DNA from: Pseudokineococcus lusitanus | GTDB taxonomy: Bacteria > Actinomycetota > Actinomycetes > Actinomycetales > Quadrisphaeraceae | Assembly (NCBI RefSeq): GCF_003751265.1 | Contig: NZ_RJKN01000008.1 | Span: 62,001 to 126,000 of the forward strand | Reading direction: 5' to 3' | Length of the DNA: 64,000 nucleotides | Shown: positions 8,761 to 56,166 of the stretch, one piece after another | Position numbering within the stretch: position 1 is the stretch's first letter | Layout: every line of letters starts with the position of its first letter | Program-made: the position numbers and the translations under genes | The notes under the pieces: generated by a model | What the model was told of the DNA's origin: nothing | What the model saw: the letters and a program-made list of their open reading frames with translations, nothing else | Database searches by the model: none

Positions 8761-10806
8761 GTGGACGGTGAGCGGCGCCGCGTCGGCGGCGGACGGACGG
8801 CGGGGCGGTCCCCCGGCGGTCCCCGGCCGGTGCGGCCGCGGCTGCGCGACCGGCCCTGGGCCTCGGCCCGGTGGTGGACGCGGCAGCACGAGGTGGCCAC
8901 CCCGCACGCCGTCGGCGCCTCGCTGGGCGTGCTCTACCTCGCCGCCGCCCTCGCCCTCGCCGCCCAGGCCCTCGGCGTGCCCGGTGGCTTCCCCTTCGTG
9001 TCCGAGGTCGCCTCGAGCGACATGGCCCGGTCCCTCCAGGGGCCCGTCACCCTCCTGTCCCTCTCGGCCGCCGCGGTCGTCGTCAGCGCGGTCGTCACCC
9101 TCCGGCGGGAGGCGGTCACCCACCGCTGGGCGCACCTGCTCACCGCGGTGGCGACGTGCCTCATCGGCGTGGCGGTGGTCGCCGCCCCCGACGACGGCGC
9201 CGCCGTCGCGCTCGCGGCCGTCTACGGCTTCGTCGTCATCGAGAGCGCCGTGGTCTTCGCGCCCGGGCCGGCGACGCTGCAGTTCCTCCTGTGCGGCAGC
9301 GCGGCCGTCATCAGCCTCAGCTGCCGCGACGACGTCGACCCCGGCGAGATGGTCGCCGTGGTCGTGGTGCTCGTGGCCACCGCCGCCGTGGTCGGCGTGC
9401 TCGCGCGCCACGCCTCCGACGCCCGCGTCGACGAGCTCACGGGCCTGCCCAACCGTCGGGGGCTCGACCAGATGCTCGAGGCGGCCGCGACGGCCGCCGG
9501 GCGCGGCGGCACCGTGCTGACCGTCGGCCTGCTCGACCTCGACGGCTTCGGCGCGGTCAACGACGGCCTCGGCCACGAGGCCGGCGACCGCCTGCTGCGC
9601 GAGACCGCCGCCGCCTGGCGCGAGGCCCTGCCCGCCGACGTCGTGCTGGCGCGGATGGGGGGCGACGAGTTCGCCGTCCTGCTGCCGGACCGCTCGCCCG
9701 CGGCGGCCGCCGCGCTGCTCGACGCGCTGTGCGCCGACCCGCACCGGCCCGCCTCCGCCGGCGTCGCCGCCAAGGGCCCCACGGAGTCGACCGCCGACGT
9801 CGTCCGCCGCGCCGACGCCGCCCTCTACCGCGCCAAGAGCACGGGCCGGGGCCGCTGCCTGCAGGCCGACCACGACCTGCCCGGCGCGGGGGACTCCGCG
9901 GCGCTGACCCGCGAGCTCACGGAGGCGCTCCGCAGCGGCGGGCTCCACCTCGTCTACCAGCCCCTGCGGGCCACGCCGAGCACGCCCGGCTTCGCCGCGG
10001 AGGAGGCCCTGCTCGCCGGGGTGGAGACGCTCGTGCGCTGGACGCACCCCGTCCACGGCCCCGTCGGGCCGGACGTCTTCGTGCCGCTCGCCGAGCGCGA
10101 GGGCCTCGTCGCCCAGCTCGGCGCCTTCGTGCTGCGCCGGGCCTGCCACGAGATGGCCGCGCTGCCGGACGCCGCCGCGCGCCGGGTGCGGCTGTCCGTC
10201 AACGTGTCCGGACTCGAGCTGCTCGACCCCGCCTACCCGGGCCGGGTCGCCGACGCGCTCCGCGACTCCGGCTGGCCGGCGGACCTGCTCGTGCTCGAGG
10301 TGACCGAGTCCGTCGTCGAGGCGGACTCCCGGGCCGCGCTGGCGGCGCTGCGCGCCGTCGCCGACCTCGGGGTCGCGCTGGCCGTCGACGACTTCGGCAC
10401 GGGCTTCTCCGCGCTCAGCCGTCTCGACGACATCGGCGCCGGGTACCTCAAGCTCGACAGCACCCTCATCGCGACCGTCCACACGTCGCCGCGCCGCGCC
10501 CGGCTCGTGCGGGCCGCGGCGGCGCTGGCCCGCTCCCTCGACATCACCCTCGTCGCCGAGGGCGTCGAGACCCTCGAGCAGGCCCACGTCCTCGCGTCGA
10601 TGGGGTGCCCCGTCCTCCAGGGCTTCCACCTGGGCCGTCCCGAGCCGGTCGAGGCCCTGGCGCGGCGCCTGGCGACGGAGACCACGCACCCCGTCGGCCG
10701 GGCGCTGCCCCTGCAGGCCCCCGCGGTGGTGCGGCAGGGCCGTGGCGACCACGATCGCGCCGGGGCCGTGGCCGCCGACGCCGGCCGCCCGACCGCGGAC
10801 GCGTAG
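8761..10806 (+). CDS. Membrane-bound GGDEF-EAL c-di-GMP signalling protein
   Basis: A 681-residue protein. After a basic N-terminus come about six transmembrane helices (residues 45-215), then a GGDEF domain with an intact GGDEF at 300-304 but no RxxD inhibitory site (LPAD in its place), then an EAL domain. The EAL signature reads ETL (422-424), a conservative change that keeps the metal-binding Glu. The other EAL motifs are present: NVSG, EVTES, DDFGTGFS, LKLDS, AEGVET and QGFHLGRP. Both activities, synthesis and hydrolysis of c-di-GMP, are possible. The GTG start at 8761 follows GGAGG by five bases; the frame stays open far upstream but has no coding character there. Confidence 0.9.
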   Translation: MDGERRRVGGGRTAGRSPGGPRPVRPRLRDRPWASARWWTRQHEVATPHAVGASLGVLYLAAALALAAQALGVPGGFPFVSEVASSDMARSLQGPVTLLSLSAAAVVVSAVVTLRREAVTHRWAHLLTAVATCLIGVAVVAAPDDGAAVALAAVYGFVVIESAVVFAPGPATLQFLLCGSAAVISLSCRDDVDPGEMVAVVVVLVATAAVVGVLARHASDARVDELTGLPNRRGLDQMLEAAATAAGRGGTVLTVGLLDLDGFGAVNDGLGHEAGDRLLRETAAAWREALPADVVLARMGGDEFAVLLPDRSPAAAAALLDALCADPHRPASAGVAAKGPTESTADVVRRADAALYRAKSTGRGRCLQADHDLPGAGDSAALTRELTEALRSGGLHLVYQPLRATPSTPGFAAEEALLAGVETLVRWTHPVHGPVGPDVFVPLAEREGLVAQLGAFVLRRACHEMAALPDAAARRVRLSVNVSGLELLDPAYPGRVADALRDSGWPADLLVLEVTESVVEADSRAALAALRAVADLGVALAVDDFGTGFSALSRLDDIGAGYLKLDSTLIATVHTSPRRARLVRAAAALARSLDITLVAEGVETLEQAHVLASMGCPVLQGFHLGRPEPVEALARRLATETTHPVGRALPLQAPAVVRQGRGDHDRAGAVAADAGRPTADA

Positions 10807-35801: not shown

Positions 35802-37661
35802 TCAGGGCGCGGGTGGGGCGCTCGCCGCCGGCGTCGTGCGGAGGGCGGCGGGAGCCCGGGGGCGGGGGACGCCCGTGCCCGCCGGTCCGGGGAGGTCCGG
35901 CGGCGCGGGGCGGGCGAGGTGGAAGCCCTGCGCGTGGGTGGCGCCGAGGAGGCGGAGCTCGGCGAGCTCGGCGGCGTCCTCGACCCCCTCGGCGACGCAG
36001 GTGGCGCCGAGCTCGTGGGACAGGCCGATGACGGCGCGGGCGATGGCACGGCGGGCGGGGTCGGTGTGGACGGCGCGGACGAAGGCGATGTCGAGCTTGA
36101 TGACGTCGGGCTCGAGCCGGGTCAGGTGCTGGAGGCTGGCGTAACCGGCGCCGGTGTCGTCGATGGCCAGCAGGAGGCCTCGGGCCCGGAGGCCGGCGAG
36201 GGCGGTCAGGAGCGTGGGGTAGTCCTGGACCCGGTCGTGCTCGGTGAGCTCGACGACCAGGCGGCGGGGGTGGGCGGGGTCGAGGGCGTCGGCGAGGAGG
36301 TCGTGGGTGGCGGGGTGCAGCAGGGCGGCGGCCGAGAGGTTGACCGACAGGTACTGGCCGGTGGGCAGGTGGGGGAGCAGGGCGAGGGCGTCGGCGGCGG
36401 CGGCCTGCTCCAGCTCGACGCCCAGGCCGAGGTCGGCGGCGTCGGCGAACACGTGGTCGGGACGCCGGGGGGCGCCGGCGGGGTCGGTGAAGCGGGACAG
36501 CGCCTCGTGGCCGGCGACGTCGCCGGTGGCGAGGTCGACGATCGGCTGCAGGACGAGGGTGCGACGTCGCCCGTCCAGATGAGGCGTGAAGGTGCGGCGC
36601 TCGTCCTCGCGGCGCCGGTGCTGCTCGAGCTCCTGCGCGACGTGGGCGCCGACGAGATCGGCGATGGTCTGCAGGGCGCCGAGCTGGCCGGGGGTCAGCG
36701 GCGTCGACGCGGTGGACCCGACGCCGCAGACCGTCCCGTAGAGGGTGCCGTCGGGCAGGTGCACGGGGACGCTGCAGTAGGCGCCGACCCCGAAGGCCTT
36801 CGTGACCGGCAGGGAGGCCAGGGTGGGGTGGCTGCGGACGTCGGCCACCGAGGCGGGCAGCGTGCCGTCCAGCACGCGGCTGCAGTAGCCGTCCGCCGCG
36901 TCGAGGCTGCTGCCCTCGACGAGCCCCTGCAGGGCCGGACCGACGTCGGGGCCGGCCTCGACGACGGTGAAGGTCTGGGTGCCGCCCTCGAGCGTGGACA
37001 GCGCGGTGACCTCCAGGCCGGTGGTCGCGCGTCCGGCGGCCAGCAGCCGCCGCACCACCGGGGAGGTCGCCGTGGAGGCCTCGCCCGGTGCGGTGCCGGA
37101 GCGGTCGCCGGGGCGGCCGCCGCCGGCGAGGGGGGCGAGGACGTCGACGACCTCGAGGGCCCGCTGCCGGGCCCGCAGCGACGTGACACGGACGGCGGCC
37201 TGACGCGTCAGGGCACGGGCCAGCGCCTCGTGGGTGTCGTCGAAGGTGCCGTGGCCCGGGGGGCGGGTCAGGTAGAGCGCGCCGAGCACGACGCCGTCGT
37301 GCGTGACGGGCAGGGCCAGCAGCGCCGCCATCGGGGTGTGCGCCGAGGGCAGCCCGACCGCCTCGGCATGGGTCCGCATGTCGTCCAGCCGCAGCGTCCT
37401 GCCGGTCAGCACCACCCCCACCAGCCCGACGGGCCGGGGCAGGTGCGGCAGCACCGAGACCTCGGTCGACGTCATGCCCTGGTGGGCCAGCGCCGACGGG
37501 GCCCCGTCGGCGCCGACCAGCAGCGCGACGCCGAAGCGCGCGGCCGTGAGGGTGCGGGCGACGTCGACCAGACGCTCCAGCACGCCGCGCTCGGACTCCT
37601 CGCCGGCGATCGAGACGACCCCGTCCACGACGGGGACCAGCTCCTCGGCCGCCGGGCTCAT
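35802..37661 (-). CDS. GAF-GAF-EAL c-di-GMP phosphodiesterase
   Basis: A 619-residue soluble protein. Residues 15-165 form a GAF domain (FGVALLVGADG; LALPVTHDGVVLGALYLT). A second GAF-like domain (about 205-365) contains YCSVPVHLPDGTLYGTVCGV. The EAL domain (390-600) keeps the catalytic motifs HEALSRF, NLSAA, ELTEH, DDTGAGYAS, IKLDIAFV, AEGVED and QGFHLARP; no GGDEF domain is present. It should hydrolyse c-di-GMP under control of the GAF ligands. The ATG at 37661 overlaps the GGDEF gene stop by four bases, so synthase and hydrolase are made together. Confidence 0.9.
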   Translation of the reverse strand: MSPAAEELVPVVDGVVSIAGEESERGVLERLVDVARTLTAARFGVALLVGADGAPSALAHQGMTSTEVSVLPHLPRPVGLVGVVLTGRTLRLDDMRTHAEAVGLPSAHTPMAALLALPVTHDGVVLGALYLTRPPGHGTFDDTHEALARALTRQAAVRVTSLRARQRALEVVDVLAPLAGGGRPGDRSGTAPGEASTATSPVVRRLLAAGRATTGLEVTALSTLEGGTQTFTVVEAGPDVGPALQGLVEGSSLDAADGYCSRVLDGTLPASVADVRSHPTLASLPVTKAFGVGAYCSVPVHLPDGTLYGTVCGVGSTASTPLTPGQLGALQTIADLVGAHVAQELEQHRRREDERRTFTPHLDGRRRTLVLQPIVDLATGDVAGHEALSRFTDPAGAPRRPDHVFADAADLGLGVELEQAAAADALALLPHLPTGQYLSVNLSAAALLHPATHDLLADALDPAHPRRLVVELTEHDRVQDYPTLLTALAGLRARGLLLAIDDTGAGYASLQHLTRLEPDVIKLDIAFVRAVHTDPARRAIARAVIGLSHELGATCVAEGVEDAAELAELRLLGATHAQGFHLARPAPPDLPGPAGTGVPRPRAPAALRTTPAASAPPAP

Positions 37662-38728
37662 GCCGCCCTCGTCGGGGACGGCCGGCCCGGCGCCGGCTGG
37701 GAGGGGATGCGGTGCGCCGTGTCCCGCACGGCCGGCTCGTGGACGACGAGGTGGTGCTTGCCGGAGCGCTTGGCGGCGTACATCGCCGTGTCCGCACGCA
37801 CCAGCACCTCCGCCGCCGTGGTGGGCGGCGTGGTCGCGTCCAGGTGCACCAGGCCGGCGCTGACGCCGACCGTCCGCGGGGCGCCCGCGACGTCGTAGCT
37901 CTGGCCGGCCAGCACGCCCCGGGCGACCGCGGTGATCCGCTCGAGCGGGGTGTCGTCCTCGACCAGCAGGGCGAACTCGTCGCCGCCGAGGCGCGCGAGG
38001 GTGTTGCCGGGGCTGACCATCGCCGCCCACCGGGCGGCGACCTGCACCAGCAGGTCGTCGCCGACGGCGTGCCCGTGCGTGTCGTTGACGCCCTTGAAGT
38101 CGTCGAGGTCCATCAGCAGCACCGTGATAGCCCGTCCGTCGGAGCGGTGCAGGTCCAGCGCGTGCGCCAGGCGGTCGTGGAACACCGCCCGGGTGGCCAG
38201 GCCGGTGAGCCCGTCGTGGGTCGCCAGCCGGTGCAGCTCGGCCTCCCGCTCCCGGGCCTGCGCCCGCAGCCGCTCGGACAGCAGCACCTGCGCGAGCAGG
38301 TCGGCCAGCAGGTCGAGGACGGGCGCGAGCCGCTCGACCTCCCCGGCGGCCACGGACCGGGGGTGGTAGCCGCACAACGTCCCGTACAGGTGCCCGTCCT
38401 CGAGCCGGATCGGCGCGCCGACGTAGGCCCCGACCGGCCACTGCTGCACCGGGGCCGTCGCGGCGTACTCCTCGACCGCGGCGGTGTCGTGCGCCAGCCG
38501 GGGTGCGCCGGCGACCATCCGTCGGCACAGGGAGCCCTCCCACGAGGCCACGTCGCCCGGGGCGAAGCCGAAGGTGTCGTCGCGGACGTCGACGAAGACC
38601 TGCTCCTCGCCGTCACGGCGGGTGATCGCCCACATGCCGAGCGGCAGCTGCTCCTGCAGGCACGACAGCACCCGTGCGCTGGCGGCCTCGAAGGACAGCA
38701 GCCCGTCCACCGGCTCCTCGCCCGTCAC
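37658..38728 (-). CDS. GAF-GGDEF diguanylate cyclase
   Basis: A 356-residue protein. The N-terminal GAF domain (about 10-165) has YVGAPIRLEDGHLYGTLCGY, closely like the second GAF of the next gene. A helix (AQAREREAELHRLATHDGLTGL) leads into the GGDEF domain, with GGDEF at 248-252. The inhibitory RxxD site is absent (SPGN). I chose the GTG at 38728: GGGGAG lies five bases upstream and the codon overlaps the acetamidase stop as GTGA. An upstream GTG at 38821 would add 31 residues of low complexity. Expected to synthesise c-di-GMP. Confidence 0.88.
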   Translation of the reverse strand: MTGEEPVDGLLSFEAASARVLSCLQEQLPLGMWAITRRDGEEQVFVDVRDDTFGFAPGDVASWEGSLCRRMVAGAPRLAHDTAAVEEYAATAPVQQWPVGAYVGAPIRLEDGHLYGTLCGYHPRSVAAGEVERLAPVLDLLADLLAQVLLSERLRAQAREREAELHRLATHDGLTGLATRAVFHDRLAHALDLHRSDGRAITVLLMDLDDFKGVNDTHGHAVGDDLLVQVAARWAAMVSPGNTLARLGGDEFALLVEDDTPLERITAVARGVLAGQSYDVAGAPRTVGVSAGLVHLDATTPPTTAAEVLVRADTAMYAAKRSGKHHLVVHEPAVRDTAHRIPSQPAPGRPSPTRAA

Positions 38729-39894
38729 ACCGACTCCCCGCTCCGTCTCGGGCCGCTCGACCGCGTCCCGTCGTGGCGGTCCATCGGTCCGGGCGGCGAG
38801 CACCTGAGCGGTCGTCGGCACGAGGAGCCATGGGGAGCAGGACCACCGCGGTCAGCCGCCGGTCCACCGAGCCGGCGCCGGTCCCGGTGCCGCGACGAGG
38901 GCCTGCTCGGTCGGCGGCACCGCCCGCCGACGACCAGGCGGCCCGGCGGCAGGACCGCGTGGACCCCGTGCACCTGGTTGACGACCTGGGTGACCCGCAG
39001 GTCCACGGCCACCGACGCCAGGGCCAGCGCGCGGGTGCGGCCGAGGCCGTGCCGCTCGCGCAGCAGCTCGACCATCCCGTCGAGCGCCATGACGGTCGCC
39101 CGGCGGAGGTCGGCGTCCACGCCGAAGGTGACGTCGCCCGCCGGCGTCGTCGCGCGTGGCGTCCGGGCGAGGGCGGGCGAGGGGGCGGTGTGCAGCACGA
39201 CCTCCAGCTCCACGCGCCGCATCGGGCACTCGACGGCGAGGCCGGAGACCTCGCCGTCCCCCTGCGCCGCGTGGCCGTCCCCGACCGACAGCAGCGCCCC
39301 CGGCACCTCGACGGGCAGGAAGAGGCTGCTGCCGACGACGAGCTCGCGGCAGTCGAGGTTCCCGCCGGTCCGGCGCGGGGGCACCGTGCTGCGGGGACCG
39401 GGTCCGGCGGGGCAGACGCCGACGACGCCGAGGAAGGGCCGGAGCGCCACGACGTCGCCGTGCTGGTCGCGCGCGGTGCCGGTGCCCGCGGCGGCGTCCC
39501 AGGCCAGGTGCCAGAGCAGCATCTCGGGGTCGGCGTCCGCGACGCCGAGCGCGTCGTTGCACCAGCTCGGCCAGCCGCCCGCCCGGGTCCAGCCCCAGCC
39601 GCCGGGCTCGAGGGCGCGCACCCGGACCTCCAGCACCGTGCCGGGCTCGGCCCCCACGACGGCGAAGGGCCCGGTGAGCGCGTGCCCGGGGTCCTGCTCG
39701 CGGTCCCGGCCCGGGCGCGGCGCCGGCGCGGCGTCGGGTCCGTGCAGGTCGCCCTGCTCGTCGGCGTGCCATCCGGCGTCGACGGTGGACAGGACGAGGA
39801 CGTCGCCGCTCGCGACCTCCAGCAGGGGCGGGAGGTCGGCGTCGAAGCGCCCGTGGAGCGACGCGTCGCGGTGCGGGACGACGTGGACGGCCAT
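38725..39894 (-). CDS. Acetamidase/formamidase family protein with extended tail
   Basis: A 389-residue protein. The first 325 residues match the acetamidase/formamidase family: GPFAVVGAEPGTVLEVRV, NLDCRELVVGSSLFLPVEVPGALLSVGDGHAAQGDGEVSG in segments, and VNQVHGVHAVLPP. It should release ammonia from short amides. The last 60 residues are Arg/Pro/Ser/Gly-rich and unlike the family; the true gene end may still be this one, since the stop overlaps the GGDEF start by four bases. The tail could be a recent read-through after loss of the original stop. The ATG at 39894 lacks a strong ribosome binding site. Confidence 0.83.
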   Translation of the reverse strand: MAVHVVPHRDASLHGRFDADLPPLLEVASGDVLVLSTVDAGWHADEQGDLHGPDAAPAPRPGRDREQDPGHALTGPFAVVGAEPGTVLEVRVRALEPGGWGWTRAGGWPSWCNDALGVADADPEMLLWHLAWDAAAGTGTARDQHGDVVALRPFLGVVGVCPAGPGPRSTVPPRRTGGNLDCRELVVGSSLFLPVEVPGALLSVGDGHAAQGDGEVSGLAVECPMRRVELEVVLHTAPSPALARTPRATTPAGDVTFGVDADLRRATVMALDGMVELLRERHGLGRTRALALASVAVDLRVTQVVNQVHGVHAVLPPGRLVVGGRCRRPSRPSSRHRDRRRLGGPAADRGGPAPHGSSCRRPLRCSPPGPMDRHDGTRSSGPRRSGESV

Positions 39895-53694: not shown

Positions 53695-53844
53695 GCGCTG
53701 GGCCGGACGGGTGACCGTGCCGCGCACGCCCGGGCGCGGCCCGCGCGCCTGCCGACGGGAGAGCGGGGCTCCCGCCGTCCAGGTCCGGGCGCGGGGCCCC
53801 GCGCGCGGCCCCGCCCGGGCCACCAGCAGGAGCAGGAGTCCCCG

Positions 53845-56166
53845 TTGGACCGACATGAGGTGAGCGCCGCCCTGGGGGGCGTCCGCAGCGTCTTCCAGCC
53901 CATCGTCGACCTCGACACGGGCGCCGTCGTCGCCTACGAGGCGCTGGCCCGCGGGCCGCGGGGGACCGCGCTGGAGATGCCGTCCGACCTCTTCGACGCC
54001 GCCCGCGCGCACGGGCTCCTCGGCGAGCTCGACGGCGCCTGCCGCCGCGCGGCGCTGAGCGGCGCCGTCGACGCCGGCCTGCTGGCCCCGCTCACCCTCT
54101 TCGTCAACGTCGAGCCCGAGGTGCTCGACGCGGCACCGCTCGACGAGCTGCTCGCCCTCGCCGAGGGGGCGCCGGGCGACCTGCGCGTCGTCGTCGAGCT
54201 CACCGAGCGCGCCCTCGCGGCCCGCCCCGCCGAGCTGCTCCGCACCGTCGAGCGCGTCCGCTCCCTCGGGTGGGGCGTCGCGCTGGACGACGTCGGCGCC
54301 GAGGCGATGTCCCTCGCGCTCATGCCGCTGCTGCGCCCCGACGTCGTCAAGCTCGACCTGCGGCTCGTGCAGGACCGGCCCGGCCCCGCCGTCGCCCAGG
54401 TGATGAACGCCGTCAACGCCTACGCCGAGGAGACGGGCGCCGTCGTCCTCGCGGAGGGGATCGAGCACGAGGGCCACCTCCGCGCGGCCCGCGGGCTCGG
54501 CGCGCGCCTCGGGCAGGGCTGGCTCTTCGGCCGGCCCGGTCCGGGCCCCGTGGCCGGGCTGGCCGTCGGCGCGCTCGCGCTGCCCGCGCCGCCGCCCGTG
54601 CTCCCCGAGCGCTCGTCGCCCTTCGCCCTCCTGCCGCCCGGCACGCCGCTGCGGCGCTCCCCGAAGCGGCTGCTCATCGAGCTGTCCAAGCAGCTCGAGC
54701 GCGAGGCGCTGCGGCTGGGCGAGACCGCCGTCGTCGCCTCGACCTTCCAGGAGGCGCGCCACTTCACGCCCGCGACCGCCGGCCGCTACCGCGACCTCGT
54801 GGAGCGCACGGGCTTCGTCTGCGCCATCGGCGAGGACCTCCCGGCCGAGCCGGTGCCGGGCCTGCGAGGCGCCCACCTCGACCCGACGGACGCGGTCCGG
54901 GGCGAGTGGGACGTCGTCGTCCTCGGCCCCCACTTCTCCGCCGCGCTGCTGGCGCGCGACCTCGGCGACGACGGCCCCGACATGCAGCGCACCTTCGAGT
55001 ACGCGCTGACCTACCGGCGCAGCACGGTCGTCGCCGCGGCGTGCTCGCTGCTCTCCCGGGTGGCGCCGCGGGTGCCGACGGCCCCGGCCGTCCCGGGCGC
55101 GGTCGCGGGTGGTGCGCCGGCGGTCCTCGCGGCGTCCGTGCCCGGCACGACGACCGTGGTCGGGCCCACGGGGGCCGGCGAGGCGCTCCTGCACCGCGCG
55201 CTCGCGGCGACGACGAGCGGCGTCACCATCGCGGACGCCCGCCGCCCCGACATGCCGCTCGTGTACGTCAACGCCGCCTTCGAGCAGCTCTCCGGCCTGC
55301 GCGCCGAGCAGGTCCTCGGGCGCAACTGCCGCTTCCTCCAGGGCAGCGACACCGACCGCGGCGTCGTCGACGCCATCCGCGCCGCGCTCGCCGCCGGCCG
55401 CGAGTGGCACGGGACGCTGCTCAACCACCGCGGCCCCGACCGCGAGCCGTGGTGGAACGAGATCCACCTCTCGCCGGTCCTCGACGAGGACGGCCGGGTG
55501 CTGCAGTACATCGGCGTCCAGGACGACGTCACCCACCGCGTGCAGGCCGAGCGGCGGCTCGCGCAGGAGCGCGACCGCGCCGCCGGCTACCTGGAGCGGC
55601 TCGAGCGGCTGGCCGTCACCGACCCCCTGACCCGCCTCGCCAACCGGCGCGGGGTCGAGGAGGGCGTCGAGGAGGTCCTCGCCCGGGCCGACGCCACGGG
55701 GACCGCCGCGGCCCTGCTCTTCTGCGACCTCGACGGCTTCAAGGCCGTCAACGACCGCCACGGCCACGGGGTCGGGGACGCGCTGCTCGTGGCCGTCGCC
55801 GAGCGGCTGCGCGGGCGTCTGCGCGAGCACGACCTCCTGGCGCGGCCGGGCGGCGACGAGTTCCTCGTCGTCCTGCCCGGGCTCGTGCCCGCCACCGCCG
55901 CGGCGGACGCGGCGCGGGTGGCCGAGGAGCTCGCGGCGGACCTCGCCGCACCCCTCGTGCTGCCCGACGGCCGCCGCGTCGCCGTGGGCGCGAGCGTCGG
56001 CGTCGCCCTGCACCCCGACGACGGCGCCACCTTCCGCGACCTGCTGCACCACGCCGACGGGCGCATGTACGACGCCAAGCGGGCGCGGCGTGCCGCCGTC
56101 GTGCCCGGGCAGGCCGGCGCGCCCGCCCGCGAGCAGGTGGGGCCGGGGGCGACGGCGCCGGCCTGA
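53845..56166 (+). CDS. EAL-DICT-LOV-GGDEF light-type c-di-GMP signalling protein
   Basis: A 773-residue soluble protein with four domains. EAL (1-235): YEAL at 31-34, NVEPE, ELTER, DDVG, VKLDL, AEGIEH, GQGWLFGRP. DICT (about 255-405): ARHFTPATAGRYRDLVERT and WDVVVLGPHFSAALLARDL. LOV (about 450-565): GRNCRFLQG with the flavin-adduct Cys495, then LLNHR, WWNEIHLSPV and YIGVQDDV, so all flavin-contacting Asn, Arg and Gln residues appear. GGDEF (595-760): GGDEF at 669-673 with an RxxD site (REHD). Blue light is therefore a likely input for c-di-GMP turnover. A TTG at 53845 has AGGAG six bases upstream; a GTG at 53860 is an alternative. Confidence 0.9.
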   Translation: MDRHEVSAALGGVRSVFQPIVDLDTGAVVAYEALARGPRGTALEMPSDLFDAARAHGLLGELDGACRRAALSGAVDAGLLAPLTLFVNVEPEVLDAAPLDELLALAEGAPGDLRVVVELTERALAARPAELLRTVERVRSLGWGVALDDVGAEAMSLALMPLLRPDVVKLDLRLVQDRPGPAVAQVMNAVNAYAEETGAVVLAEGIEHEGHLRAARGLGARLGQGWLFGRPGPGPVAGLAVGALALPAPPPVLPERSSPFALLPPGTPLRRSPKRLLIELSKQLEREALRLGETAVVASTFQEARHFTPATAGRYRDLVERTGFVCAIGEDLPAEPVPGLRGAHLDPTDAVRGEWDVVVLGPHFSAALLARDLGDDGPDMQRTFEYALTYRRSTVVAAACSLLSRVAPRVPTAPAVPGAVAGGAPAVLAASVPGTTTVVGPTGAGEALLHRALAATTSGVTIADARRPDMPLVYVNAAFEQLSGLRAEQVLGRNCRFLQGSDTDRGVVDAIRAALAAGREWHGTLLNHRGPDREPWWNEIHLSPVLDEDGRVLQYIGVQDDVTHRVQAERRLAQERDRAAGYLERLERLAVTDPLTRLANRRGVEEGVEEVLARADATGTAAALLFCDLDGFKAVNDRHGHGVGDALLVAVAERLRGRLREHDLLARPGGDEFLVVLPGLVPATAAADAARVAEELAADLAAPLVLPDGRRVAVGASVGVALHPDDGATFRDLLHHADGRMYDAKRARRAAVVPGQAGAPAREQVGPGATAPA

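Follow-up and report, generated by a model that had tools for sequence, protein, structure and literature searches.

The gene at positions 53845 to 56166 of a 64,000-nucleotide stretch of the Pseudokineococcus lusitanus genome (hereafter the window) raises a key question: when a putative blue-light receptor shares one chain with both a candidate cyclase and a candidate phosphodiesterase for c-di-GMP, which of the two enzymes does light control? The open reading frame (+ strand) encodes 773 aa with the domain order EAL-DICT-LOV-GGDEF, and its parts are as follows.

53834..53838, + strand: Shine-Dalgarno-like AGGAG, with the TTG start six bases further on (sequence)
53845..56166, + strand: EAL-DICT-LOV-GGDEF protein, TTG start (sequence, Pfam)
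53875..54537, + strand: EAL domain, residues 11-231 (Pfam 3.3e-37; invariant in the family core)
54286..54333, + strand: EAL loop 6, residues 148-163, DDVGAEAMSLALMPLL, the variant that goes with DICT, acidic at position 153 (alignment; the control is the 16 DICT-free EALs of the genome)
54655..55062, + strand: DICT domain, residues 271-406 (Pfam 4.4e-12; AF2 domain model, pLDDT 94.7)
55063..55182, + strand: Ala/Pro-rich DICT-LOV tether, residues 407-446 (413-443 predicted disordered)
55183..55524, + strand: LOV domain, residues 447-560 (Pfam, conservation, fold match)
55327..55329, + strand: codon of Cys495, the adduct-forming position, in GRNCRFLQG (sequence, conservation)
55525..55629, + strand: LOV-GGDEF coiled-coil linker, residues 561-595, DVT...DPL, exactly 35 aa (length class per PMC10396304)
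55612..56091, + strand: GGDEF domain, residues 590-749 (Pfam 1.5e-40)
55822..55833, + strand: RxxD inhibitory site REHD, residues 660-663 (sequence, conservation)
55849..55863, + strand: GGDEF signature, residues 669-673 (sequence, conservation)

All four Pfam matches lie far above their own cut-offs, including that of the DICT domain (PF10069, residues 271-372; 46.5 bits, cut-off 23.8) and that of the LOV region, which is matched by PAS_9 (468-563, 5.7e-16). The catalytic and metal-binding set of the EAL domain is complete (E32, N88, E118, E121, D148, D149, K169, E204, E207 and Q224), all eight flavin and adduct residues of the LOV domain are present (N494, C495, R496, Q499, N527, R529, N538 and Q559), and the GGDEF active site is intact (D628, N636, D637 and 669-673), with R660 and D663 of the RxxD site also in place. 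An earlier, sequence-only reading of this DNA had pointed to an intact GRNCRFLQG signature with Cys495, to the flavin-contacting segments LLNHR, WWNEI and YIGVQ and to a GGDEF signature with an RxxD feedback site; all of these are found in the translation where it placed them, and the cysteine signature is conserved in the family. Its statement that both output domains keep their catalytic motifs is right for the ten EAL positions and the GGDEF set, with the qualification that EAL loop 6 reads DDVGAEAMSL instead of the usual DDFGTGYSSL and thus departs from the class I form. In the predicted full-length model, residues 413-443 of the tether have a pLDDT below 50, indicating disorder, and residues 563-590 form a single helix. 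The gene stands alone, between a GH42 beta-galactosidase gene and genes for a sugar-type ABC solute-binding protein and permease, and in Geodermatophilaceae its neighbors are phenylalanyl-tRNA synthetase and SpoU methylase genes; the neighborhood offered no functional clue in either Pseudokineococcus or Geodermatophilaceae.

Is this arrangement a peculiarity of one genome? A scan of named genomes returned 129 related places, and the best 80 of these come from Kineococcus, Pseudokineococcus, Quadrisphaera, Geodermatophilus, Blastococcus, Modestobacter and Klenkia (the genera of the family proper) together with a few bins; the four-domain order is shared by nearly all of them. A lone fusion or an assembly artefact is therefore ruled out, nor is the arrangement due to chance, as the four domains recur, with the same residues, in orthologues from several actinobacterial families. 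The DICT domain was present in 26 of the 99 genomes searched, that of P. lusitanus included, and in 11 of the 12 other genomes of its own taxonomic family. Close relatives make up many of the aligned rows, and certain genomes are represented twice under different identifiers. In the family tree (87 rows, with the remoter EAL-DICT-PAS-GGDEF paralogues excluded), the genera are mostly clustered; one protein titled Streptomyces sp. NP160 (L139) groups with Quadrisphaera, and its name may be wrong. The union of LOV with c-di-GMP enzymes is of an already known kind, as ~18% of the LOV proteins of bacteria have an output of this type (PMC4844311). For the EAL-DICT-LOV-GGDEF architecture in Kineococcus and Geodermatophilaceae, however, no description was found in the open literature (subscription papers lay outside the search), and the family and its natural variants appear to be undescribed there.

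The genome itself (3.84 Mb) contains 51 matching stretches of GGDEF, EAL or LOV type and five flagellin matches, indicating a host that probably has many c-di-GMP enzymes and is motile. Within the window, a GGDEF-EAL protein is encoded at 9391-10806 (+) and a GAF-EAL protein at 35802-38543 (-), with an adjoining GAF-GGDEF protein at 37658-38821 (-). Elsewhere in the genome, an EAL-DICT-PAS-GGDEF paralogue (L041, G000 C6:334663-336879) carries a PAS domain without the LOV cysteine. Another protein (L003, G000 C5:188562-190301) resembles the query in its N-terminal EAL, intact LOV (GRNCRMLQG) and GGDEF domains, but it has no DICT domain, a canonical loop 6 (DDLGSGYSSL) and a 21-aa LOV-GGDEF linker.

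The length of this last segment bears directly on how light might reach the cyclase. LOV-activated diguanylate cyclases (LadC) have been sorted by the distance between LOV and GGDEF, measured from D(I/V)(T/S) to DxLT, into a long class of 35 aa and a short class of 21 aa, and the long class is tightly switched, with activation by light of more than 10,000-fold (Vide et al., PMC10396304). Of the 103 LOV-bearing rows in our alignment, 95 have a linker of exactly 35 aa (71 distinct linker sequences); two remote members have one of exactly 21 aa, and lengths of 32-34 aa occur only in rows without GGDEF. That 35 aa might be general to PAS-GGDEF proteins is ruled out by the linkers of two LOV-free PAS-GGDEF proteins and of the EAL-LOV-GGDEF protein of the same genome, all of 21 aa. 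The top fold match of the full-length predicted model was MsLadC (PDB 8C05), LOV structures were matched by fold at a target TM of at least 0.9, and in sequence the LOV-GGDEF part aligned with MsLadC with an ungapped linker and an E-value of 1.1e-41, which rests largely on conservation of the LOV and GGDEF domains.

The linker also agrees with LadC in its residues. In the register described for these coiled coils (PMC10396304, PMC12805367), which we numbered from the residue numbers given in the two papers, positions 5, 12, 19 and 26 are shared, 8, 15, 22 and 29 are inhibiting, and 2, 9, 16, 23 and 30 are stimulating. The family carries Glu at position 15 in 52 of 53 intact sequences, Glu or Gln at 9 and Arg or Gln at 16, so that, as in MsLadC, both registers contain non-hydrophobic positions; Glu15 and Arg5 match residues discussed for LadC in the same papers. 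The query thus shares with MsLadC a canonical LOV, a GGDEF with an RxxD site, the 35-aa linker and these two residues. LadC proteins, however, consist of LOV-GGDEF alone, with no other enzymatic domain, whereas here EAL and DICT precede the LOV domain on an N-terminal tether, and light activation of the query is a prediction. With this proviso, the earlier proposal of a blue-light-controlled c-di-GMP enzyme is well supported by the intact LOV, the LadC-class linker and the closest structure.

The family-wide behavior of the other connecting segments is quite different. The DICT-LOV tether varies from 21 to 69 aa, is composed of 25% Ala and 18% Pro and is unconserved; the EAL-DICT linker is 37-64 aa long (mean 42). 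From the fixed LOV-GGDEF linker and the variable, disordered DICT-LOV tether, we infer a chain of two rigid modules, EAL-DICT and LOV-GGDEF, held together by a leash. Because the tether is floppy and unconserved, no rigid connection carries the light signal to the EAL domain, and this flexibility argues against simple allosteric light control of EAL. The same contrast in connectors favors the reading that light controls the GGDEF domain only, as in a pure LadC module, with EAL-DICT an independent phosphodiesterase obeying a DICT signal and the fusion merely co-localizing the two. Further in its favor, LOV is nowhere lost in the tree while GGDEF is intact: GGDEF and LOV are both intact in 60 of the 87 proteins, GGDEF is lost with LOV intact in 22, both are lost in 5, and an intact GGDEF without LOV occurs in none.

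The relatives that have lost GGDEF nevertheless weigh against it. At least 8 state changes are required for GGDEF on the tree (about eight losses) and two for LOV, and the LOV domain is intact in 22 of the 27 GGDEF-lost proteins. Two clades of them are well supported: 11 Blastococcus proteins have a dead GGDEF domain (e.g., ADEATRDSF replacing DDNDGGDEF), and in 5 Modestobacter proteins the chain ends after the coiled coil. All eight flavin-site residues of LOV are invariant in both clades; if eight sites were drawn at random among the LOV columns, this would be expected with P ~0.002, a guide only, as these sites are the most conserved in any case. The LOV/EAL distance ratio is not raised in the GGDEF-lost clades (1.4 vs 1.5-2.2 in intact ones), while the GGDEF distance ratio is 3.6 in the GGDEF-dead clade vs 2.1-2.8. 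The only LOV-bearing row of the core family without the adduct cysteine (L061) has a damaged GGDEF too. In four Blastococcus cases (L091, L092, L096 and L098), a second EAL-DICT-GGDEF gene, its LOV gone and its GGDEF degenerate, lies shortly after the EAL-DICT-LOV-GGDEF gene. Since LOV sites and a normal rate are retained in lineages with no cyclase left to control, LOV should serve something besides the cyclase, and EAL is the only other known output. Light therefore probably acts on the EAL side as well, and control of GGDEF alone, although a serious contender, seems to us unlikely.

Could these LOV domains have been retained for another reason? There are LOV-like PAS domains that bind flavin but give no photochemical output, and the LOV domain here could be structural or redox-sensing only, binding flavin and dimerizing while light plays no physiological role. 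In the GGDEF-lost lineages, it could have been kept for dimerization only, though the adduct cysteine is not by itself required for that. Because almost every LOV member, including the GGDEF-lost ones, has Cys495 and the same residues at the seven remaining flavin sites, a LOV domain indifferent to light is highly improbable.

A further possibility is that the protein is in effect a light-regulated phosphodiesterase, in which GGDEF acts in vivo only as a regulatory domain binding GTP or c-di-GMP. The precedent is SL2 of Synechococcus elongatus, which likewise joins LOV, GGDEF and EAL in one chain and is a blue-light-activated phosphodiesterase (PMC8846402). As judged from their catalytic residues, the relatives show EAL to be the constant output, invariant in the catalytic core of the family, and GGDEF to be dispensable and repeatedly lost. 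Yet the query keeps its full GGDEF active site, as do 60 of the 87 tree proteins, most of which also keep the I-site and the 35-aa linker, and its EAL domain has a non-canonical loop 6. The two proteins also differ in build: relative to SL2 (LOV-GGDEF-EAL), the order in the query is reversed, with EAL first, and a DICT domain is added. The order, described as unusual by the sequence-only reading, is unusual in comparison with SL2-type proteins but is the rule within its own family. A 21-aa linker is reported for LOV-GGDEF-EAL systems (PMC10396304), against 35 aa here. Taken as a description of the query, an SL2-like phosphodiesterase is decidedly unlikely.

Another important question is what the DICT domain contributes; neither its own signal nor the DICT-linked change in loop 6 had entered the earlier reading. 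In all 112 catalytic EAL-DICT rows, loop 6 takes the form DDVG[A]-[D/E], so that position 153, a Gly in other EALs, is acidic; the same is true of none of the 16 DICT-free EALs of the genome. Five EAL-DICT proteins of neighboring genomes (L073-L077) have lost nearly all catalytic residues and are still acidic in loop 6; hence it is probably DICT, and not catalysis alone, that preserves the loop variant. The altered loop leaves the activity of the query EAL unsure, but class II EALs may be functional despite deviating signatures (PMC12900916), which makes activity likely. A 2022 review counts DICT itself as one of the sensory domains that have no discernible purpose (PMC8846402). A sequence search at E-values up to 10 found no relative of solved structure. 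The best fold match of the AF2 model was Zucchini (4gen; E 7e-3, probability 0.99, TM 0.56). PPK1, Tdp1 and the NgoAVII R-protein were also matched, and all four have phospholipase-D-superfamily folds; no match reached an E-value of 0.001 or better, so these serve as a lead only. With no HKD-type HxK motif seen in its sequence, DICT may act as a sensor on a PLD-like fold that is catalytically dead.

Taken together, the data best fit a light-switched cyclase of LadC type held on a leash with a DICT-regulated phosphodiesterase, with light also influencing the EAL domain, a reading to which we assign a probability of roughly 0.58. According to it, the protein would be a soluble, probably dimeric blue-light receptor capable of both making and degrading c-di-GMP. 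In the LOV dimer, blue light would join the flavin to Cys495 as an adduct; this would shift the register of the 35-residue coiled coil and switch on the GGDEF dimer, as in long-linker LadC. Against such a switch, LOV-GGDEF parts excised from LOV-GGDEF-EAL proteins showed no light regulation in earlier work that PMC10396304 cites. DICT would set the EAL phosphodiesterase through the altered loop 6. Judging from the relatives without a working GGDEF, the LOV dimer would also influence EAL, the simplest proposal being that, across the leash, it makes the two EAL domains associate or separate. In BlrP1, light acts through the EAL dimer (PMC8846402), and the likeness to it and to other BLUF-EAL phosphodiesterases would lie in blue-light control of EAL; these, however, have BLUF instead of LOV and neither GGDEF nor DICT.

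As both catalytic sets are intact, a single protein may be able to reverse the sign of its output, as the sequence-only reading had suggested. A more specific version of the scheme, which we offer tentatively and regard as doubtful, has a single LOV dimer governing both enzymes, the cyclase being turned on via the coiled coil and the phosphodiesterase being controlled via the leash and a DICT domain docked on loop 6, with DICT a dead PLD-like ligand sensor. If this were true, light and the DICT ligand would jointly set the sign of c-di-GMP turnover in each molecule.

Opposing activities in one chain, possibly both under light control, may also be of use in optogenetics. For the organisms themselves, the analysis defines a light-sensing c-di-GMP protein family of sun-exposed desert, rock and soil actinobacteria. 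This family contains its own natural experiments, namely intact, cyclase-dead, cyclase-less, LOV-less and DICT-less relatives, which make it testable how LOV talks to EAL and what DICT does.
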